Shown here: one piece after another, positions 3,892-24,526 of the stretch
Layout: each line of letters begins with the position of its first letter
Position numbering within the stretch: the stretch's first letter is position 1
DNA from: a bacterium
GTDB lineage: Bacteria; B130-G9
Direction: 5' to 3'
DNA: 32,515 nt
NCBI GenBank assembly: GCA_021160245.1
Contig: JAGHCW010000192.1
Location: forward strand, 1-32,515
Translations under genes and position numbers: made by a program
The notes under the pieces: generated by a model
The model's input: only the letters and a program-made list of their open reading frames with translations
The model's database searches: none
Told to the model about the DNA's origin: nothing

Positions 3892-5730
3892 TTGAATATG
3901 TTAACTGGTGAAGACCTAAAAGCGAAGCTCAAGAGTATTGACAGGTCGGGCTATAAGTCCTACAAGACGCTAGCTGGTCGCTACAAATGCGGAGACTACA
4001 TACTGATCTTCGACATAATCCAAAGCGACCCCTTTGCCCCTCCCTCACGCATCCGCGTTAGGGTGCCCAGCGATGTGTCGAGATTCCCAAAGGCTCTCTT
4101 CTCCTCTGCGCCTCGTAAGAGGGCGCTTGAGGACTTTCTCACTCGTCAGTTTCATGCTGCTACGCAAGAGTCGAAGCGCCGGATAAGGGGCTCCGGGAAA
4201 AGTGGTACTCTCGAAATAGCACAATGTGGGCAGGAGGTTCTTGCGCGCAGTTCGATGAAGGTGACGGATGAGTACATTGAGGCGCGATTCGTCGCCGGTC
4301 TACCGGCGGATGGCCGAATCATACTGGGCCACGAGGCCTACGCGATGTTCTATGGGGTTCTTCCGGGCCTTGTTCGGAGCGCGTTGATGTATCAGAACCT
4401 CGACAGGAACGCGCTCGCGAAACATATAGAAGTTGTTGAGGACCAGGATTACATCAGACAGAGGCTTGAGGAGTTGGGACTCATAGCGTTCGTGGCGGAT
4501 GGCTCTATCCTGCCTCGGCGCAGCGGAATTGACGATCGCCCGATGTCCGGAATCATCGTTGACGTGGACACACTGGATGTGGTCAACCCGGGTCAAATCG
4601 GCGCTAATGTCGTCATTCCCTTTAAGTCTCCCAGAACACTCAGCATGGAGATAAGCACGCCGAACCGCGGTCTAGTCAAAGGCATGGCTCTTAAGCCCGG
4701 CGTAACGCTCATTGCGGGAGGTGGATTCCACGGGAAGTCAACGTTGTTATCGGCGATTCAAAGGGGAGTGTATGACCACATCCCCGGCGATGGCCGGGAG
4801 TATGTTGTAACTCTCGACACAGCGATGAAGATAAAGGCGGAAGAGGGGAGAAGCATCGAGAAGACGGACATAAGGCCCTTCATAGACAACCTCCCATTCG
4901 AGCAAAGCACGATGGCTTTCACAACGCAAAACGCAAGCGGAAGCACGTCCCAGGCGGCGAATATAATGGAATCGCTCGAGATGGGCGCCAATGTGCTTCT
5001 AATAGATGAGGACACATCGGCAACGAATTTCATGATTCGGGACGTGAGGATGCAGCATCTGGTTCCGAAGAACAAGGAACCGATCACTCCATTTGTGGAC
5101 AAAATAAGGCTCTTGTATCGTGACAGAGGCGTCTCTACAATCTTGGTGATGGGCGGCTCGGGCGATTACTTTGAAGTGGCGGACTTAATCCTCGTGCTTG
5201 ACAACTACATCGTGAGAGACGATACGGTCAGGGCACAGACGATAGCGATTGATAATTGCACGAAGCGCAAGGTCGAGGGAGGAGATGAGTTCGGCGAGGT
5301 TGTGAGTCGTTGCCCCATGAGGCGTGCGATGAGCTCCAGGTCAGGCAAGCATGAGGTAAAGATCGACGTTAAGGGGAAAGACAAAATACTCTATGGTGAT
5401 AGCGAGATCGATCTCTTGGCTATCGATCAGATTGTTGATATTGGGCAAACCCACGCAGTAGGAGACGCGATCTACTACGGGGTGTCGAACTATTTGAAGG
5501 ATTTGGAGAGCAACTTGACCATATCCGAGCTAGCTTATCACGTTGATGAGGACATTAGAGAAAAGGGCCTGGACATTCTGTCGCCATTCGCTCGTGGAGA
5601 TTATGCCAGGCCGAGGCGCTTAGAAATAGGGGCAGCGATGAACCGTTTGCGCTCCCTCAAAGTCAGGCAAAATAGACCGGAAAAACAAGTCCAGGAAGGG
5701 GCAGAAGTTGACAAGGAATCTGTTATTTAA
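3892..5730 (+). CDS. ABC-class P-loop ATPase, COG3044 type, function unknown
   Basis: A 612-residue soluble protein of the predicted ABC-class ATPase family (COG3044, Pfam ABC_ATPase), for which I know of no settled role. Visible motifs are Walker A GGGFHGKST near residue 276, a signature-like SGSTSQA near 350, and Walker B LLIDEDTSATNFMIRD near 369; the last is a family hallmark. There are no membrane segments. A TTG at 3892 and an ATG at 3898 are both possible starts; GAGG at 3884-3887 is closer to ideal for either than any later codon. The 3' end overlaps secD by 23 bases, so it is likely co-expressed with the export genes. Confidence 0.88.
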   Translation: MNMLTGEDLKAKLKSIDRSGYKSYKTLAGRYKCGDYILIFDIIQSDPFAPPSRIRVRVPSDVSRFPKALFSSAPRKRALEDFLTRQFHAATQESKRRIRGSGKSGTLEIAQCGQEVLARSSMKVTDEYIEARFVAGLPADGRIILGHEAYAMFYGVLPGLVRSALMYQNLDRNALAKHIEVVEDQDYIRQRLEELGLIAFVADGSILPRRSGIDDRPMSGIIVDVDTLDVVNPGQIGANVVIPFKSPRTLSMEISTPNRGLVKGMALKPGVTLIAGGGFHGKSTLLSAIQRGVYDHIPGDGREYVVTLDTAMKIKAEEGRSIEKTDIRPFIDNLPFEQSTMAFTTQNASGSTSQAANIMESLEMGANVLLIDEDTSATNFMIRDVRMQHLVPKNKEPITPFVDKIRLLYRDRGVSTILVMGGSGDYFEVADLILVLDNYIVRDDTVRAQTIAIDNCTKRKVEGGDEFGEVVSRCPMRRAMSSRSGKHEVKIDVKGKDKILYGDSEIDLLAIDQIVDIGQTHAVGDAIYYGVSNYLKDLESNLTISELAYHVDEDIREKGLDILSPFARGDYARPRRLEIGAAMNRLRSLKVRQNRPEKQVQEGAEVDKESVI

Positions 5731-17962: not shown

Positions 17963-18460
17963 CTACTGGCAGTCGATGTAGAAGCTACCCGACTGTTTGC
18001 AGGTAGTAGGAGCCGCACTATCGTACATGTCGTAGAGCACTGTCGTCTCATTGTCTATTTCATACTTAGCGGAGGTGTAGTAGTGATAGTAGCACTCGTT
18101 CTCCTCATCGTAACCGGAGACTTCTTTCGTCATCGGGGCATACGGACCGCTATTGCCCAGGCTGGACCAAAGGGCGCCTGCATCGTGAGCGCAGCATTCG
18201 TCCTTGTCCCAATGCTTGGCTGTAAATGTCGTCTCGGATTTATCCAATGGCAGTGGGACACACGTGAGAATGCGGGCACTGACAATGCAGTTGGTCACGG
18301 ACTGCCCGCCGTCCCGGCCAGAATCATCATCCCGGACTTCAGCTGTGCCGGGCGTCCCAGAACCACTCGAACCAGTGAAATCGGAGATAGCAAATGCAAT
18401 CGACCCAGCAGCAACTAGCGCAAGGGGTCGCGGTCTTGGCTTGACTCTGCTTGCCAACAC
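17963..18460 (-). CDS. Hypothetical Cys-containing secreted or membrane-anchored protein
   Basis: A 165-residue frame with GTG at 18460. The N-terminus is basic (SRVKPRPRP), then a short hydrophobic stretch (LALVAAGSIAFAI), then a Gly/Ser/Thr linker, so export or membrane anchoring is plausible. The rest has seven Cys (including ECC and a C-terminal YIDCQ) and Tyr-rich stretches such as CYYHYYTSAKYEID, as seen in disulfide-bonded extracellular proteins. I recognise no family. No clear ribosome binding site precedes the GTG, and an antisense frame of similar length exists, so confidence is moderate. A hairpin follows its stop. It is divergent from the Kelch gene. Confidence 0.5.
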   Translation of the reverse strand: MLASRVKPRPRPLALVAAGSIAFAISDFTGSSGSGTPGTAEVRDDDSGRDGGQSVTNCIVSARILTCVPLPLDKSETTFTAKHWDKDECCAHDAGALWSSLGNSGPYAPMTKEVSGYDEENECYYHYYTSAKYEIDNETTVLYDMYDSAAPTTCKQSGSFYIDCQ

Positions 18461-18531
18461 TTGCAGACTACATTTGCAGAGTTTATGGAATCTTAAAGTG
18501 CATCAATTGTCTAGAAACAGGAGGTGTTCGG

Positions 18532-19605
18532 ATGAACTTCAGCCGTAACGTAGTCCTAGTGGTAGTCTTATGTCTTTTGCTGGGCGTTCCGCAAGTTTGG
18601 GCAGGCTCAAAAGACAAGCCCGCGACATTTCGGGAGATGATCACGAAGAAGGCCGCGCCTGAGCCGCGCGTTGCCTCGGCCGCTATTTTCAGAGAGAAGG
18701 CGAATCAGCTAGCTATCTTTGGCGGGTGGTTGCAGATGCTCAGTTCTAAGGGGGATATCTGGACTCTCGACTTGAAGACCAAGGAATGGTCAAGGATCAA
18801 GCCCAAGAATGGTGATCTTAAGAAGATCGCATTGTCGTCAACCGCGGTTTATGACAAGGCGCGGGACCGGCTGATTGTGATGATGCTGAAGATAGATGGT
18901 GGCTTTGAGACACACTGGTATAGTTTTGCGGATAATAAGTGGAATGCCGTCCCATCGACCAGCGATACTCCCTCGGCCAGAGAAATTCCCAAGCCGGCCC
19001 AAGATACTAAAACGGACTCGTTGGTCCTATTTGGCGGTTCGGCGTGGGCCAATCCCGATTTTACTCGGTATCGTATCATGTATTACAACGACCTATACAC
19101 TCTGTCTCTTAAAGACCTCAAGTATAAGAAGCTTGAGGCAAAGGGCCAGATTCCCCAACCGCGAGGCGGGCATTGCCAGATATATGATCCCAAGACGCAA
19201 TCTGTTGTGGTTTTTGGTGGCGTCGGAGCGGATAAGCAAGGTGCGACAGTCGTATTCAATGACCTTTACGTACTCGATCTTAAGACAATCGAATGGCGAA
19301 AGATCAATGCAAAGGGCATCACGCCTAGACCGAGGTCTTTGCATTCCGCGGTTTACGATCCCCTAAAGCATCGGATACTCGTATTTGGTGGCGAGGGAGC
19401 AAAGGGCAAATTATTCGCAGAAATCCTCCAGCTTGACCTGAAAACTTACACATGGTCGCTTGCAAGCACTAAGTCTCCTATTACATTGCAGTTATCAAAT
19501 ACTGCGTCCACTTGGGACCAGAAGGGCAAGCGCGTTCTCCTTTTTGGAGGCGTGCAGCCGGGCATGATGTTTATGAACTCAGTTTGGGAATTCGTTACAA
19601 AATAG
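18532..19605 (+). CDS. Secreted Kelch-repeat beta-propeller protein
   Basis: A 357-residue exported protein. ATG at 18532 has a near-perfect AGGAGGTG ribosome binding site and opens a signal peptide (NVVLVVVLCLLLGVPQVWA, cleavage after WAG or WA), so the longer frame from 18451 is rejected. At least five Kelch-like units follow, each with a hydrophobic strand, FGG, and a conserved W about 20 residues later, for example LVLFGG, VVVFGGVG, ILVFGGEG and VLLFGG. Such propellers bind proteins or glycans; the ligand here is unknown. It is transcribed away from the other propeller gene and the Cys-containing protein. Confidence 0.85.
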   Translation: MNFSRNVVLVVVLCLLLGVPQVWAGSKDKPATFREMITKKAAPEPRVASAAIFREKANQLAIFGGWLQMLSSKGDIWTLDLKTKEWSRIKPKNGDLKKIALSSTAVYDKARDRLIVMMLKIDGGFETHWYSFADNKWNAVPSTSDTPSAREIPKPAQDTKTDSLVLFGGSAWANPDFTRYRIMYYNDLYTLSLKDLKYKKLEAKGQIPQPRGGHCQIYDPKTQSVVVFGGVGADKQGATVVFNDLYVLDLKTIEWRKINAKGITPRPRSLHSAVYDPLKHRILVFGGEGAKGKLFAEILQLDLKTYTWSLASTKSPITLQLSNTASTWDQKGKRVLLFGGVQPGMMFMNSVWEFVTK

Positions 19606-19711: not shown

Positions 19712-21109
19712 TTGCCGAGAGTACTGATAATTACTACGGAGCTGTTGCCGACGCTGCCGTGCCTTACCGTCGGTGGCAGCCAGCGAACACACGCTTTGGG
19801 TGAATCGCTGAAGCTCAAGGGGCATGAGGTGATTTACTCACTTCCACTTGAGCATCTTCGGGGTATAAAGCCCCTGCCTGAGAGACTTCTCGAAACCGCC
19901 CACTCTCTCTTAGACATTGATGAGATCATAGAGCGAGTTTCTCCTGACGTGGTTCTCTTTGCGGCGCCTTATCTCGCTCGATTTATGCAAGAGCAGAGAG
20001 TTCCAGTCGTCATGGACATGGCTGCGAATGTGGAATTGGAGACCGCTTTTGCGCCCGGCGAGAACTTCATTGACGTGATGTCAGGCCGGTTGGACCAGTA
20101 TCGCAAGGGCGATTTTTTCATCCTGGGCAGTCCGCGTCAGCTCTATTGGTACTCAGCGTTTCTGCTGCTTTCGGGAATTCCGGTGAATGACGACTATTTT
20201 AGCGTCGTGCCTATCTCCTGTTCTCCGGAGCAGCCTGATATCCCCGAACGCAATGAGCTCAGATTCCTTTGCGCTGGGATGTTCTATCCATGGCAGGACC
20301 CATTTGAGGCCCTGAAAGACGTATTATCTACGCTGGAGGAACACAGTAGAGGAGAACTTCATATATTCGCCGGCAGAGAGCACCCCGCCTGGAAGAGCAT
20401 CTCATCTTCACTTTTCGACCCCGAGGCTGTCCTGGGTGAGAGCGATCGGCTCTTCATCAAGGGCATCTTGCCTTTTGACGAGGCGATGGATACTTGGAAA
20501 CACTACTCATGCGCCATCGATGTTATGAAGCCCAATATAGAACGCATGCTAGCAAATCCAATGCGGACCACAACTTACCTTTGGCTGGGCATTCCGGTCA
20601 TAGTGTCCGACTTCTATTGGGTCTCGGAGCTTGTACGGGAGTATGACGCCGGCTGGGTCGTTTCGCCGAATGACACTGGCGCGGTTCGGGAGATCGTCAA
20701 GATGATACTTGGGCGCCCGGAGATCTTGGAAGAACGCGCGCGCAACGCTCAGAAACTCGTCGCAGACCGTCTTACATGGGACAAGAGCATCGATGGCCTC
20801 GACGCCTTCTGCAAAAGCCCCAAGAAGCTGCAGAAGCGACCGAGTATCCTGAGCACGCTGACGGGTGAACTGAACCGGCTCTATTCCGAGAACATAGCGT
20901 TGGGTAGGAATGTCGGTCACGTCGAGGGTAAACTGCAATTCTCTCGCGAGGAGATTGAGCGACGTATCCAAGAACTGGTAGAGCAAAAGGCAGATAACGC
21001 TGACATCAGGAACAGAATTGACGCCATTCTAAACTCTCGCACTTGGAGGCTAGTCCAGTTCATCAAGCACAAGCTGCTTAGAATGAGGCGCACGCCCTCA
21101 GAGTCCTGA
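19712..21109 (+). CDS. Glycosyltransferase, GT-B type, with C-terminal coiled coil
   Basis: Predicted cytoplasmic glycosyltransferase acting on surface glycan. The 465 residues begin with a strand and Gly-rich loop (VLIITTELL...VGGSQRTHALGESLKLKGHEV). The C-terminal nucleotide-sugar domain has IFAGREHPAW, a repositioned acceptor/donor loop around MRTTTYLWLGIPVIVSDFYWVSELV, and a helical region from about 375. The tail (about 395-450) is a heptad-like coiled coil ending NSRTWRLVQFIKHKLLRMRR, a form common in O-antigen transferases. The start is TTG at 19712, preceded very closely by GGGGGAGGA. The 3' end overlaps the convergent exonuclease gene by 12 bases. Confidence 0.78.
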   Translation: MPRVLIITTELLPTLPCLTVGGSQRTHALGESLKLKGHEVIYSLPLEHLRGIKPLPERLLETAHSLLDIDEIIERVSPDVVLFAAPYLARFMQEQRVPVVMDMAANVELETAFAPGENFIDVMSGRLDQYRKGDFFILGSPRQLYWYSAFLLLSGIPVNDDYFSVVPISCSPEQPDIPERNELRFLCAGMFYPWQDPFEALKDVLSTLEEHSRGELHIFAGREHPAWKSISSSLFDPEAVLGESDRLFIKGILPFDEAMDTWKHYSCAIDVMKPNIERMLANPMRTTTYLWLGIPVIVSDFYWVSELVREYDAGWVVSPNDTGAVREIVKMILGRPEILEERARNAQKLVADRLTWDKSIDGLDAFCKSPKKLQKRPSILSTLTGELNRLYSENIALGRNVGHVEGKLQFSREEIERRIQELVEQKADNADIRNRIDAILNSRTWRLVQFIKHKLLRMRRTPSES

Positions 21110-21970
21110 GAGAAGCCTCAATAACACCTCGCTCATCGTCACGATGTCCAACGCGTTGTGGTGGATGATGTCTTTGACCCGCTGGGCGTCCTTTGTCCTA
21201 ACGAAATCGTGATACGCCTTCGGAATGAGCGCCCCCGGTATGTCCCCGCGACGTTGCCGATTGCATATTCGCGCCTCAAGCGTCTGGAGCTTGCAGTTTG
21301 GGAACTTGCCCTTATATCGCCGGCGCGCCTCGTGTATCAAGTCAAAATGAAACTCCGTCCAGTGAAACGGCACGCGATGATAGACTGAGCGGTCCTTCAG
21401 AAAAGGCAGATCGAATGACTTACCGTTATACGTAACGACGGTCTCGTAGTCCTTCATCCGCTCCCAGAAATAGTGCAGCAGCGGCTTTTCCTCAGAATAG
21501 TCCCGCGCGAGGAGCTGGTCCATGATCATCCTCTCGCCCGAAAGGTACTGGACCCCAACGAGGAAAACAGGCACAGCCGATAGCCCACAAGTCTCGATGT
21601 CCAAATAGAGCATCTTCCTGTGATCTACCTCGCAGAATCGCTTCATATCGGGATGAAGCTTGTCAACGTCAACGCCAATCGCGCCTCGTTTGAAAACGAG
21701 GCAATAATGTGATGTGAATCGCTCCGCAGCGCGCCAGATGTCCGAAAGGTCTCGTCTTATTAGCAGAAACACGCCGTGGGGCGTTTGGATTTCCTGCCCC
21801 GGAAGATCAACTGGCGGCTCGATAAACTCAAGAATCTGATTCTCGCGCTTGGGCGCAGTTTTGGCCGTTTTGGGTTGCTTCTCAGCTTGTCTGTCGCTGC
21901 TGGGCGGCGCCCTCAGCTTGCCGCGATTCAGCTCTCGCAGCCGCCGGCGAATCTCATCCGTTATGACCAT
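21098..21970 (-). CDS. YprB-like RNase H-fold DEDDh exonuclease-type protein
   Basis: A 290-residue protein with a C-terminal RNase H-like domain of the YprB/RNase_H_2 type. The acidic motifs are visible: LDIETCGL (Asp124, Glu126), TYNGKSFDLP (Asp188), and IIHHNALDIV with His270-x4-Asp275, the DEDDh arrangement, so metal-dependent 3' to 5' nuclease activity is expected. A Lys/Arg/Pro-rich N-terminal segment of about 45 residues may bind nucleic acid. No helicase or TPR part is present, unlike some relatives. ATG at 21970 has GGGGGCGAG upstream. It converges with and overlaps the glycosyltransferase gene. The PduS-like gene lies directly upstream, 15 bases away. Confidence 0.85.
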   Translation of the reverse strand: MVITDEIRRRLRELNRGKLRAPPSSDRQAEKQPKTAKTAPKRENQILEFIEPPVDLPGQEIQTPHGVFLLIRRDLSDIWRAAERFTSHYCLVFKRGAIGVDVDKLHPDMKRFCEVDHRKMLYLDIETCGLSAVPVFLVGVQYLSGERMIMDQLLARDYSEEKPLLHYFWERMKDYETVVTYNGKSFDLPFLKDRSVYHRVPFHWTEFHFDLIHEARRRYKGKFPNCKLQTLEARICNRQRRGDIPGALIPKAYHDFVRTKDAQRVKDIIHHNALDIVTMSEVLLRLLSGL

Positions 21971-21985
21971 CGATCTCGCCCCCTA

Positions 21986-23311
21986 TCAACGCTCCAACGT
22001 GATTATATCAGCAGAGACCTCTATAACGACCGCGTCGATCGGCGCGTGAATCGGCGCCCCAAGCTGCCCCTTGTTGATCGAGGCGATGAGCTGGCCTTTT
22101 TTCACACGTTCTCCGACGACCACAATTGGACACGCTGCCTCGCCCACATGCTGTTGCATGGCGACTTTCAGCTTTGAGACCTCCAGTTGACCCGCAAAGG
22201 TGGGTGGCGGGCCATCGAGATGAAGAACGCCGAGCCTGGCTTTCAGCCGCGAGGATGGGAGCCGCCTATCGTGATACTCGGGCCTCGGCTGAGTGCTGCC
22301 GCCGTCCTGCCTCGGACGCGGATACTCCTGCTTCAAAAAGACATTCACTCGCCTCGGTGAAATCTCGAGCGGGCAGGAGTAAAGCGAGCATATTCCGCAT
22401 TCAGAGCAAAAGTGCGACTCGGCGAGGACACCATCCCCAAGGGCCCGGGTGAAGCCCGACCGCCGCATAATGAGATGAGGCCTGATATTGTGCCCCAGAA
22501 GATAACGAGGACAGAGCTCAGTGCAGAATGTGCATTGGTCGCAGACGGACATGCTGATCTTGAAGACTCGATTCAAGGATGAGGACCGCTCCATGATGGC
22601 CCTCGAATCGCTTGATAGAACGACAATGGCTGAGGTAGTTTTCTTGACCCAAGCCCTCCCTGGATCGACCAGATTGCCCATCATCACGCCGCCATCAAGA
22701 ACCGAGAGCCCTTTCGAAGAAGTCAAACCGCAAGCGCGCAGCAGATCATCAAATGATGTCCCAATAGGAACCATATAGACCGCAGGCCTCGGCGCCTCTC
22801 CACAGACCGAGACCATCCGCTCAGTGACCGGAAGGCCTCTTGAGGCGCGGGCAATGTTGTGCAACGTGGCGACATTATGCACGATCACGCCAACATCAAT
22901 CGGCAAGCCGCCCTGTGGGATTACGCGACCGGTCGCCTCGAATGTCAGAACGAACTCGTCACCGACAGGATAGACATCCGGAAGCTGCAAGAGCTCGATC
23001 CTGTCGTAAGGAGCGCTTGCAAGAAACTTCTTGAAGCCCTCGACTTGTGCCTCGTATTTCCCCTTCAGGGCCAGGATGATTCGCTTGGCAGAAACCGCTC
23101 GAGCTGCCAGCAGAAGGCCATCCAGCACATCCCTCGCGTGAAGCGCCATCAACACCTGATCGCAATAGCAGAGCGCCTCGCATTCGGCGCCGTTAGCAAT
23201 CAGAACGTCGGCCTTTGCCGATAGCTTGGCGCAAGTCGGAAAACCTCCGCCACCCGCGCCAACAACACCCGCCTCGCGAATACTCGCTATGATCTCATCT
23301 TGCTCAAGCAT
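21986..23311 (-). CDS. PduS/RnfC-like flavin and iron-sulfur electron-transfer protein
   Basis: Predicted to pass electrons from NADH through FMN and two [4Fe-4S] clusters to a partner. The order in 441 residues is a complex I 51-kDa-like N-terminal domain with GVVGAGGGGFPTCAKL, an SLBB-type region, two cluster motifs CDQCTFCTELCP and CSECGICSLYSCP, and a C-terminal barrel-sandwich domain (VKKGQLIASINKGQLGAPIHAPIDAVV). This order fits PduS (cobalamin reductase) better than RnfC, whose barrel-sandwich domain is N-terminal. The frame reaches 23422, but ATG at 23311 (MLEQDEIIASIREAG) fits family starts. No microcompartment shell or other Rnf genes are in the window, so the electron acceptor is unknown. 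Confidence 0.87.
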   Translation of the reverse strand: MLEQDEIIASIREAGVVGAGGGGFPTCAKLSAKADVLIANGAECEALCYCDQVLMALHARDVLDGLLLAARAVSAKRIILALKGKYEAQVEGFKKFLASAPYDRIELLQLPDVYPVGDEFVLTFEATGRVIPQGGLPIDVGVIVHNVATLHNIARASRGLPVTERMVSVCGEAPRPAVYMVPIGTSFDDLLRACGLTSSKGLSVLDGGVMMGNLVDPGRAWVKKTTSAIVVLSSDSRAIMERSSSLNRVFKISMSVCDQCTFCTELCPRYLLGHNIRPHLIMRRSGFTRALGDGVLAESHFCSECGICSLYSCPLEISPRRVNVFLKQEYPRPRQDGGSTQPRPEYHDRRLPSSRLKARLGVLHLDGPPPTFAGQLEVSKLKVAMQQHVGEAACPIVVVGERVKKGQLIASINKGQLGAPIHAPIDAVVIEVSADIITLER

Positions 23312-23495
23312 ATCTCTACGCAGACTCCCTGCAAAATTGGTTTGGCCCCGTGGTATATAGAGCAATGCTGTAAAAGCAAAGCCGCTAGCACGCCCGCAGG
23401 GGCTTTGTCCGCCCGGTCGCATTATACGCCCTCGATCACAGCAAATGCAACGATCAAGGGATATTACTCAGGCCAAAGCACTCCAGCATGGCTAG

Positions 23496-23524
23496 TTGAA
23501 ACGCAACGAGTTCTCTCTTATATT
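23496..23524 (+). promoter_or_regulatory. Predicted sigma70-type promoter of the GANTC methyltransferase gene
   Basis: TTGAAA at 23496-23501 and TATATT at 23519-23524 each match consensus at five of six positions with an ideal 17-base spacer. Transcription would start near 23531, about 60 bases before the TTG start of the methyltransferase gene. A GATTC (a GANTC site) lies at 23542-23546 in the leader. Confidence 0.65.
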
Positions 23525-23590
23525 GGCATCGGATAATGGATGATTCTTAGACACTCATTTGCCGAATAAGTCGCGGGGAAGCAGGGCAGA

Positions 23591-24526
23591 TTGGCTGATC
23601 GAAAGAGGCGACTCGAGGAAAATACGTCGAGGGTTGATAGCTCATGCGACCTCGTGATTGAGGATTGTAGCAATAGGCGGCAGTACAATCTCGATGATAT
23701 AAGAAACAAGACCATCCACGGAGATTCTCCGACCGCTCTTGAGAAAATGCCGGCTGATGTCTTTGATGCGGTTTTCATGGACCCTCCATATTTCTTGCAG
23801 CTTCCGAAGAAGGACTTAATTCGGTGGGAGGCAAGAACCATCGCTCGAGGTGTCGATGACGAATGGGACAAGTTTCCGTCATTTGAAGAGTATGACACCT
23901 ACATTGAGAAAATGCTCAAGGGCGTGCAGCGAGTGATGAAGCCCAGCGCAACGATATGGGTGATCTCCACCTATCACAGCATGTTCAGGATAGGTAGGGT
24001 CATGCAGGACCTCGGCTTCTGGATACTCAATGACGTTATCTGGGTCAAGACGAATCCGATGCCGAATTGGCTTGGCGTGAGGTTCACAAACGCGACCGAG
24101 AACCTTATTTGGGCGGTGAAGCACAAGGATGCGAAGAAGTACACTTTCCACAAGGACGTTGCGAAGAAGATGGGCATCGGCAGCGTCGGCGCGAATGTCT
24201 GGGTTCTGCCTATATGCACGGGCGGTCAAAGACTCAAGAACGAGAATAGAGAGAAGCTGCATTCGACGCAAAAACCGATCGAGCTGCTCAAGCGTGTGAT
24301 CCTGGTCAGCACCAATGAAGGCGATTTGATCCTCGATCCTGTGGCCGGAACTGGCACAACGGGATATGTTGCCAGCGCTCTTGATAGAGATTTTGTGATG
24401 ATTGAGAGAAGCCGCAAATATGTTGATGGGATTGCGCATAGGTTCAAAACACCGCCTCAAATATCCAAAGAACCCGAGCCAGGCGCCCAAAAGGTTGAGA
24501 GCTACATTCCGCTGGAGGATGGGTAG
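23591..24526 (+). CDS. Orphan N6-adenine DNA methyltransferase, M.HinfI/CcrM-like, predicted GANTC specificity
   Basis: Predicted to methylate adenine in GANTC. The beta-class order is clear: DPPY at residues 64-67 first, the AdoMet motif DPVAGTGTTG at 249-258 late. Family features are VDDEWDKF, IWVISTYHSMFRIG, GFWILNDVIWVKTNPMPN, RFTNATENLIWA and LPICTGGQRLK, all close to M.HinfI and CcrM. The usual FFGTG of motif I reads VAGTG. At 311 residues it lacks the extra C-terminal domain of CcrM. No endonuclease gene lies nearby, so it is orphan and may have a regulatory role. The start is TTG at 23591 after AGGGCAG; no better start precedes the conserved core. A strong promoter lies upstream. Confidence 0.9.
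   Translation: MADRKRRLEENTSRVDSSCDLVIEDCSNRRQYNLDDIRNKTIHGDSPTALEKMPADVFDAVFMDPPYFLQLPKKDLIRWEARTIARGVDDEWDKFPSFEEYDTYIEKMLKGVQRVMKPSATIWVISTYHSMFRIGRVMQDLGFWILNDVIWVKTNPMPNWLGVRFTNATENLIWAVKHKDAKKYTFHKDVAKKMGIGSVGANVWVLPICTGGQRLKNENREKLHSTQKPIELLKRVILVSTNEGDLILDPVAGTGTTGYVASALDRDFVMIERSRKYVDGIAHRFKTPPQISKEPEPGAQKVESYIPLEDG

Follow-up and report, generated by a model that had tools for sequence, protein, structure and literature searches.

A solitary, predicted GANTC-type adenine DNA methyltransferase from a short-form clade whose members often adjoin HpyAIV-family nucleases

M.HhaII is part of a restriction-modification system; the enzyme described here, which can be likened to it by description only, is solitary rather than nuclease-partnered. 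M.HhaII is also a GANTC enzyme that lacks a C-terminal domain and for which no strand separation was observed, and the C-terminal domain has been tied to orphan GANTC enzymes (PMC10359602, in excerpt). The solitary CcrM of Caulobacter and other Alphaproteobacteria reads G1 of its target with Arg44 and T4 with Arg129, makes main-chain contacts through F125 and K126, loses more than 100-fold of its activity in the H134A variant and is inactivated by deletion of its C-terminal domain (PMC6787082, in excerpt). The same excerpt places a Helicobacter pylori enzyme in an alignment of CcrM orthologues that includes the C-terminal domain, which is lacking from the enzyme studied here. M.HpyAIV methylates GANTC at 5549 of 5570 sites (PMC3936762, in excerpt). 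Good general descriptions of orphan methylases exist (PMC4752239, in excerpt), and native DNA from environmental Chloroflexi was seen to carry solitary m6A methylation of GANTC, with no restriction partner (PMC6329791, in excerpt). The Chloroflexi methylases belong to a different lineage from our enzyme and are likewise comparable by description only.

The window, by which we mean the whole stretch of 32,515 nucleotides that was analysed, encodes a predicted methyltransferase of this kind. The features relevant to it are as follows.

23591 to 24526, + strand: solitary GANTC-type adenine DNA methyltransferase (predicted), 311 aa, TTG start
23423 to 23590: intergenic region shared with a divergent RnfC-like gene, holding GATTC at 23542
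23610 to 23614: GACTC site within the ORF (at codons 7-8, counted from TTG), at chance level
residues 64-74, + strand: motif IV, DPPYFLQLPKK
23780 to 23827, + strand: DPPYFLQLPKKDLIRW (residues 64-79), motif IV and the loop that was mapped onto CcrM
24335 to 24364, + strand: motif I, DPVAGTGTTG (residues 249-258), predicted SAM binding, with V in place of F as is common in the clade

The ORF is a genuine gene with an intact frame. The TTG start codon was inferred as the first start in the open frame, with GTG at 23654 as an alternative start further in. GC content at third codon positions (0.625) is like that of the neighbouring genes (0.60-0.70). The divergent neighbour encodes an RnfC/NuoF-like protein (21098-23422, - strand), directly downstream of which is a gene for an RNase_H_2 domain protein; also present is a 384 aa Kelch-repeat protein (18451-19605, + strand).

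The protein belongs to the Pfam N6_N4_Mtase family (PF01555; 171.2 bits, cut-off 26.7). Motif IV (DPPY) precedes motif I, the order found in beta-class enzymes, and the protein is a predicted beta-class N6-adenine DNA methyltransferase. The 3.43 Mb genome of the window (G000) is rich in methylases, with 33 PF01555 matches (31 above the cut-off, some of them perhaps fragments of one gene), for example on contigs C3, C106 and C90. By sequence, the closest relative in the PDB is CcrM (6pbd, E 4.1e-73), and a fold search with an AlphaFold model ranked 6pbd_A first (TM 0.73 on the query). The model is of moderate quality (mean pLDDT 76) and poor at residues 155-168, part of the DNA-reading loop, and our statements about the loop exclude it.

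The likeness to CcrM is confined to the methyltransferase domain. Beyond the last position aligned to CcrM the protein has just nine more residues, compared with 75-104 in nine long forms; thus the C-terminal DNA-binding domain, SAND-like in CcrM, is absent, as the sequence-only reading had proposed. The score against the NCBIfam CcrM equivalog (NF050803), 309 bits, is far below the cut-off of 830. Also unlike CcrM are the Trp at the position of Pro45 and the Thr at that of His134.

Target specificity was approached by mapping the DNA-contact residues of CcrM, as drawn from the excerpt of PMC6787082, onto the window protein. Identical residues occupy 23 of the 27 positions, and the equivalents of R44, R129, K118, R179, Y34 and K193 are invariant in all 24 aligned rows of the clade described below. 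In the loop of DPPYFLQLPKKDLIRW, R78 corresponds to Arg44, the reader of G1, and W79 to Pro45, which intercalates in CcrM. The five members of a comparison set, which are methyltransferases of a different kind (35-38% identity to the query; one is encoded in the same genome), keep 10-15 of the 27 contacts, and none of the five has either R44 or R129. Because the protein shares 23 of 27 contacts with CcrM, among them the residues that read G1 and T4, GANTC specificity is likely, in agreement with the earlier assignment of this gene to the GANTC type; the nucleases linked to relatives of the enzyme (see below) also contribute to this prediction.

The clade nonetheless departs from CcrM in the variable-base loop and in C5-contact residues, which could suggest an active methyltransferase of changed specificity, recognizing a word such as GAWTC or a different one of five bases. 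Pro45->Trp, Phe125->Trp, Lys126->Leu and His134->Thr (CcrM numbering) are fixed in 24 of 24 clade rows, with Thr at the His134 position also seen in 2 of 12 outgroup rows. In the loop at the variable base, the clade has mostly P and K/N in place of G39 and G40, plus one additional residue. We consider a changed target highly improbable, because Arg44 and Arg129, which read bases, do not vary, the F125 and K126 contacts of CcrM are main-chain ones according to the excerpt of PMC6787082, and the nuclease linked to the methylase in relatives is of the HpyAIV family.

When named genomes were scanned with an alignment that combined the window protein with its two orthologues from the family, at least 80 loci were recovered. 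Among the loci listed, 24 (L039-L061 and L086) are 56-69% identical, and the remainder at most 53%. These 24 loci span many phyla, bacterial and archaeal, by their record labels; since several are short contigs of metagenome-assembled genomes (MAGs), the host label of any single locus may be wrong. L061 and L086, whose frames are broken, were excluded from the alignment and trees of the clade. The clade is split from other CcrM-like sequences with support of 100/100 and, in a second tree with more rows, 100/99. It is recognizable by DPPYFLQL (23 of the 24 aligned rows have F and one has H), by RW, which does not vary, at the positions of CcrM Arg44-Pro45, and by DP[VLMF]AG.GT. The window protein carries the combination DPPYFLQL..RW with no C-terminal domain and is thus a member. 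The variable residue of motif I is V in 16 of the 24 rows, L in four, M in three and F in one. The reading of VAGTG as an altered motif I was accurate as to sequence, and given this clade norm it is the normal form and not a sign of decay or a peculiarity of this protein.

The clade pattern NPMPNWLGVRF occurs exactly in six of 386 genomes, three of which are from the window's own family and one of which (G167) is the genome of locus L039; viral contigs contain no exact copy of it. No phage or plasmid was found to carry the short form: the best phage match is 32% identical among the best 15 of 724 records, plasmid rows are 45-52% among the best 15 of 463 records, and matches in viral contigs reach at most 51%. 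One clade locus, L050, sits among genes that appear by eye to be phage-like. A further CcrM-type methylase, from a genome outside the window's family, has DPPYNMQL and an equivalent of Pro45; it lies at a contig end (L012, G010:C14:4-660), adjoining a gene that we named by eye as lipoyl-synthase-like. We found no description of the short-form clade in the literature searched, which is weak evidence given that the search covered mostly open-access papers, with REBASE outside its scope.

Fourteen of the 24 clade loci have a gene of about 290 aa downstream of the methylase, either directly or after one gene. It was identified as PADLOC type II restriction enzyme PDLC03497 in all four cases scanned, and as a member of the NCBIfam HpyAIV family in both of two scanned (246 and 261 bits, cut-off 160). 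Both methylase and nuclease are already covered by PADLOC models. The window methylase shares predicted target and beta class with HpyAIV-type systems, and its clade relatives are coupled to nucleases of that family; the window methylase is unlike these systems in lacking the nuclease. Intervening genes include one for a PRK00809-like protein (L045:1094-2134, E 1.5e-6) and, in L055 (6882-7613) and L086 (6726-7454), one for a protein common to both loci that matches HARE-HTH weakly, below the cut-off.

An orphan status had been proposed for the window methylase, with a HinfI-type endonuclease beyond the window named beforehand as evidence that would count against it. No nuclease gene was found among the scanned neighbours in the window, nor any nuclease remnant beside the methylase. 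The search was extended to the assembly and to genomes G001, G002 and G003 of the same family. HinfI-family nucleases were not found in these four genomes, and HpyAIV-family nucleases were not found in them or in the clade genome G119 or G179, with sub-threshold matches only in G002 (E 0.13) and G119 (E 0.07). Thus, the window methylase has no HpyAIV-family endonuclease next door or in its assembly; because the assembly is 94.8% complete and in 244 contigs, an unlinked nuclease could be missing from it. The sub-threshold match in G002 (C171:10200-11460) lies just upstream of a methylase that is 33% identical, and the two are possibly a different restriction-modification pair.

For the other loci, the genome of L039 has an HpyAIV-family nuclease on a different contig, at its start. 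The genomes of the nine other nuclease-less loci among the 24 yielded none, in a search that did detect the nuclease in all three control genomes known to carry it. Adding the window genome, G001, G119 and G179 to the 24 scan loci (one of which, L058, from a MAG labelled Candidatus Coatesbacteria by NCBI, is a locus on a G002 contig) gives 28 clade genomes, most of them MAGs that may be incomplete. The nuclease is present in 15 (14 downstream, one elsewhere) and was not found in 13, which are scattered over the tree and include the window genome and two others of its family; in this tally L086 counts as having the nuclease and L061 as lacking it. In the first tree three nuclease-less branches were deepest, and with more rows the inner branching opened up. 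On the larger tree, at equal cost for gain and loss, the nuclease distribution takes five changes if it was absent at the base and seven if present. On this tree, the window's lineage may have lost the nuclease or may never have had it.

Within the family, orthologues were identified in G001 (70% identical) and G002 (69%), at different chromosomal places, so that three genera carry the methylase. The three copies group together with support of 97/89, then 97/90 with more rows. No orthologue was found in G003, which is 83% complete, and the methylase may therefore not be universal in the family. Pairwise dN is about 0.21-0.23 and dS is 1.2 or saturated; thus, the protein is under constraint. 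All catalytic residues are kept in the window and G001 copies and, as far as its contig reaches, in that of G002.

These observations bear on the idea that the gene is a functionless leftover of a decayed HpyAIV-type restriction-modification pair, heading for loss. The patchy, scattered distribution of the nuclease would agree with such decay, as would the lack of a detected copy in G003. Against it are the intact frame, the retained catalytic residues, the low dN with high dS, and the absence of any nuclease remnant adjoining the gene; the tree, moreover, does not establish that the lineage ever had the nuclease. We therefore regard a decaying leftover as decidedly improbable.

The sequence-only reading had also placed GATTC at 23542 and GACTC at 23610 just after the methylase promoter and raised the possibility of autoregulation. 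Both sites exist. Nothing marks them as special, and the second lies in the ORF rather than in a promoter; the only promoter-like match upstream (23496-23524, 10/12) is weak and within the range of shuffles. Across the window there are 156 GANTC sites where dinucleotide shuffles lead one to expect 191, and 40 of 155 neighbouring pairs are no more than 68 bases apart. At least two sites fall within -60 to +30 of three of 24 gene starts (the hand-chosen main ORFs of the window). The G001 orthologue has no GANTC within 150 bases upstream, and the sites of the G002 orthologue are at different positions. Autoregulation through the two sites was thus rejected, as they are at chance level and not conserved in the two orthologues.

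Genome-wide distribution, suggested earlier as a check, gave a similar picture. In a 0.30 Mb sample of G000, GANTC occurs overall at 0.81 of the second-order Markov expectation, and intergenic sites number 133 against 148 expected (0.90), i.e., without enrichment. G003, where the methylase was not found, differs little (0.78 overall, 0.87 intergenic). A positive control of 37 alphaproteobacterial loci with CcrM-type genes, pooled from different genomes, gave 89 intergenic sites against 66 expected, a modest excess (1.36) that was the highest of 16 words. Also not found in G000 was GcrA (PF07750).

A CcrM-like regulatory enzyme, whose GANTC methylation controls the cell cycle or transcription, that of its own gene included, would fit with a solitary gene that is retained in three genera and has two GANTC sites near its start. 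The unenriched intergenic sites, the similar values in G003, the enrichment that CcrM-bearing loci show in the same test, the undetected GcrA, the unconserved upstream sites and the missing C-terminal domain make this role improbable. It is distinctly unlikely, too, that a solitary methylase with Trp for Pro45 and without the C-terminal strand-separating domain acts as an epigenetic regulator independent of the CcrM-GcrA circuit.

The reading that we favour, and consider probable, is that of a GANTC methylase, solitary and constitutive, which comes from the HpyAIV restriction-modification lineage and is kept for protection against GANTC nucleases. The enzyme would flip the adenine of GANTC into the DPPY pocket and methylate its N6 from SAM, acting on double-stranded DNA. 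Judging from conserved residues, Arg78 would read G and Arg164 would read T, as do Arg44 and Arg129 of CcrM, and Trp79 probably serves as the wedge in place of Pro45. Clade members would be the M part of an HpyAIV-type pair in roughly half of the genomes examined; in the window's family the methylase stands alone and is most likely constitutive. It is most likely kept because methylation would render the chromosome resistant to GANTC-cutting nucleases, whether invading or formerly resident. GANTC specificity by itself is more likely than the protective role.

The window gene shows that the lack of a nearby nuclease does not by itself make a CcrM-like gene a cell-cycle regulator: its nearest relatives frequently belong to restriction-modification pairs, which are dispersed over many phyla. 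Because the C-terminal domain has been tied to orphan GANTC enzymes (PMC10359602, in excerpt) and the window enzyme is an orphan without it, the short-form clade is a natural comparison for how GANTC may be read without the strand-separating domain of CcrM.
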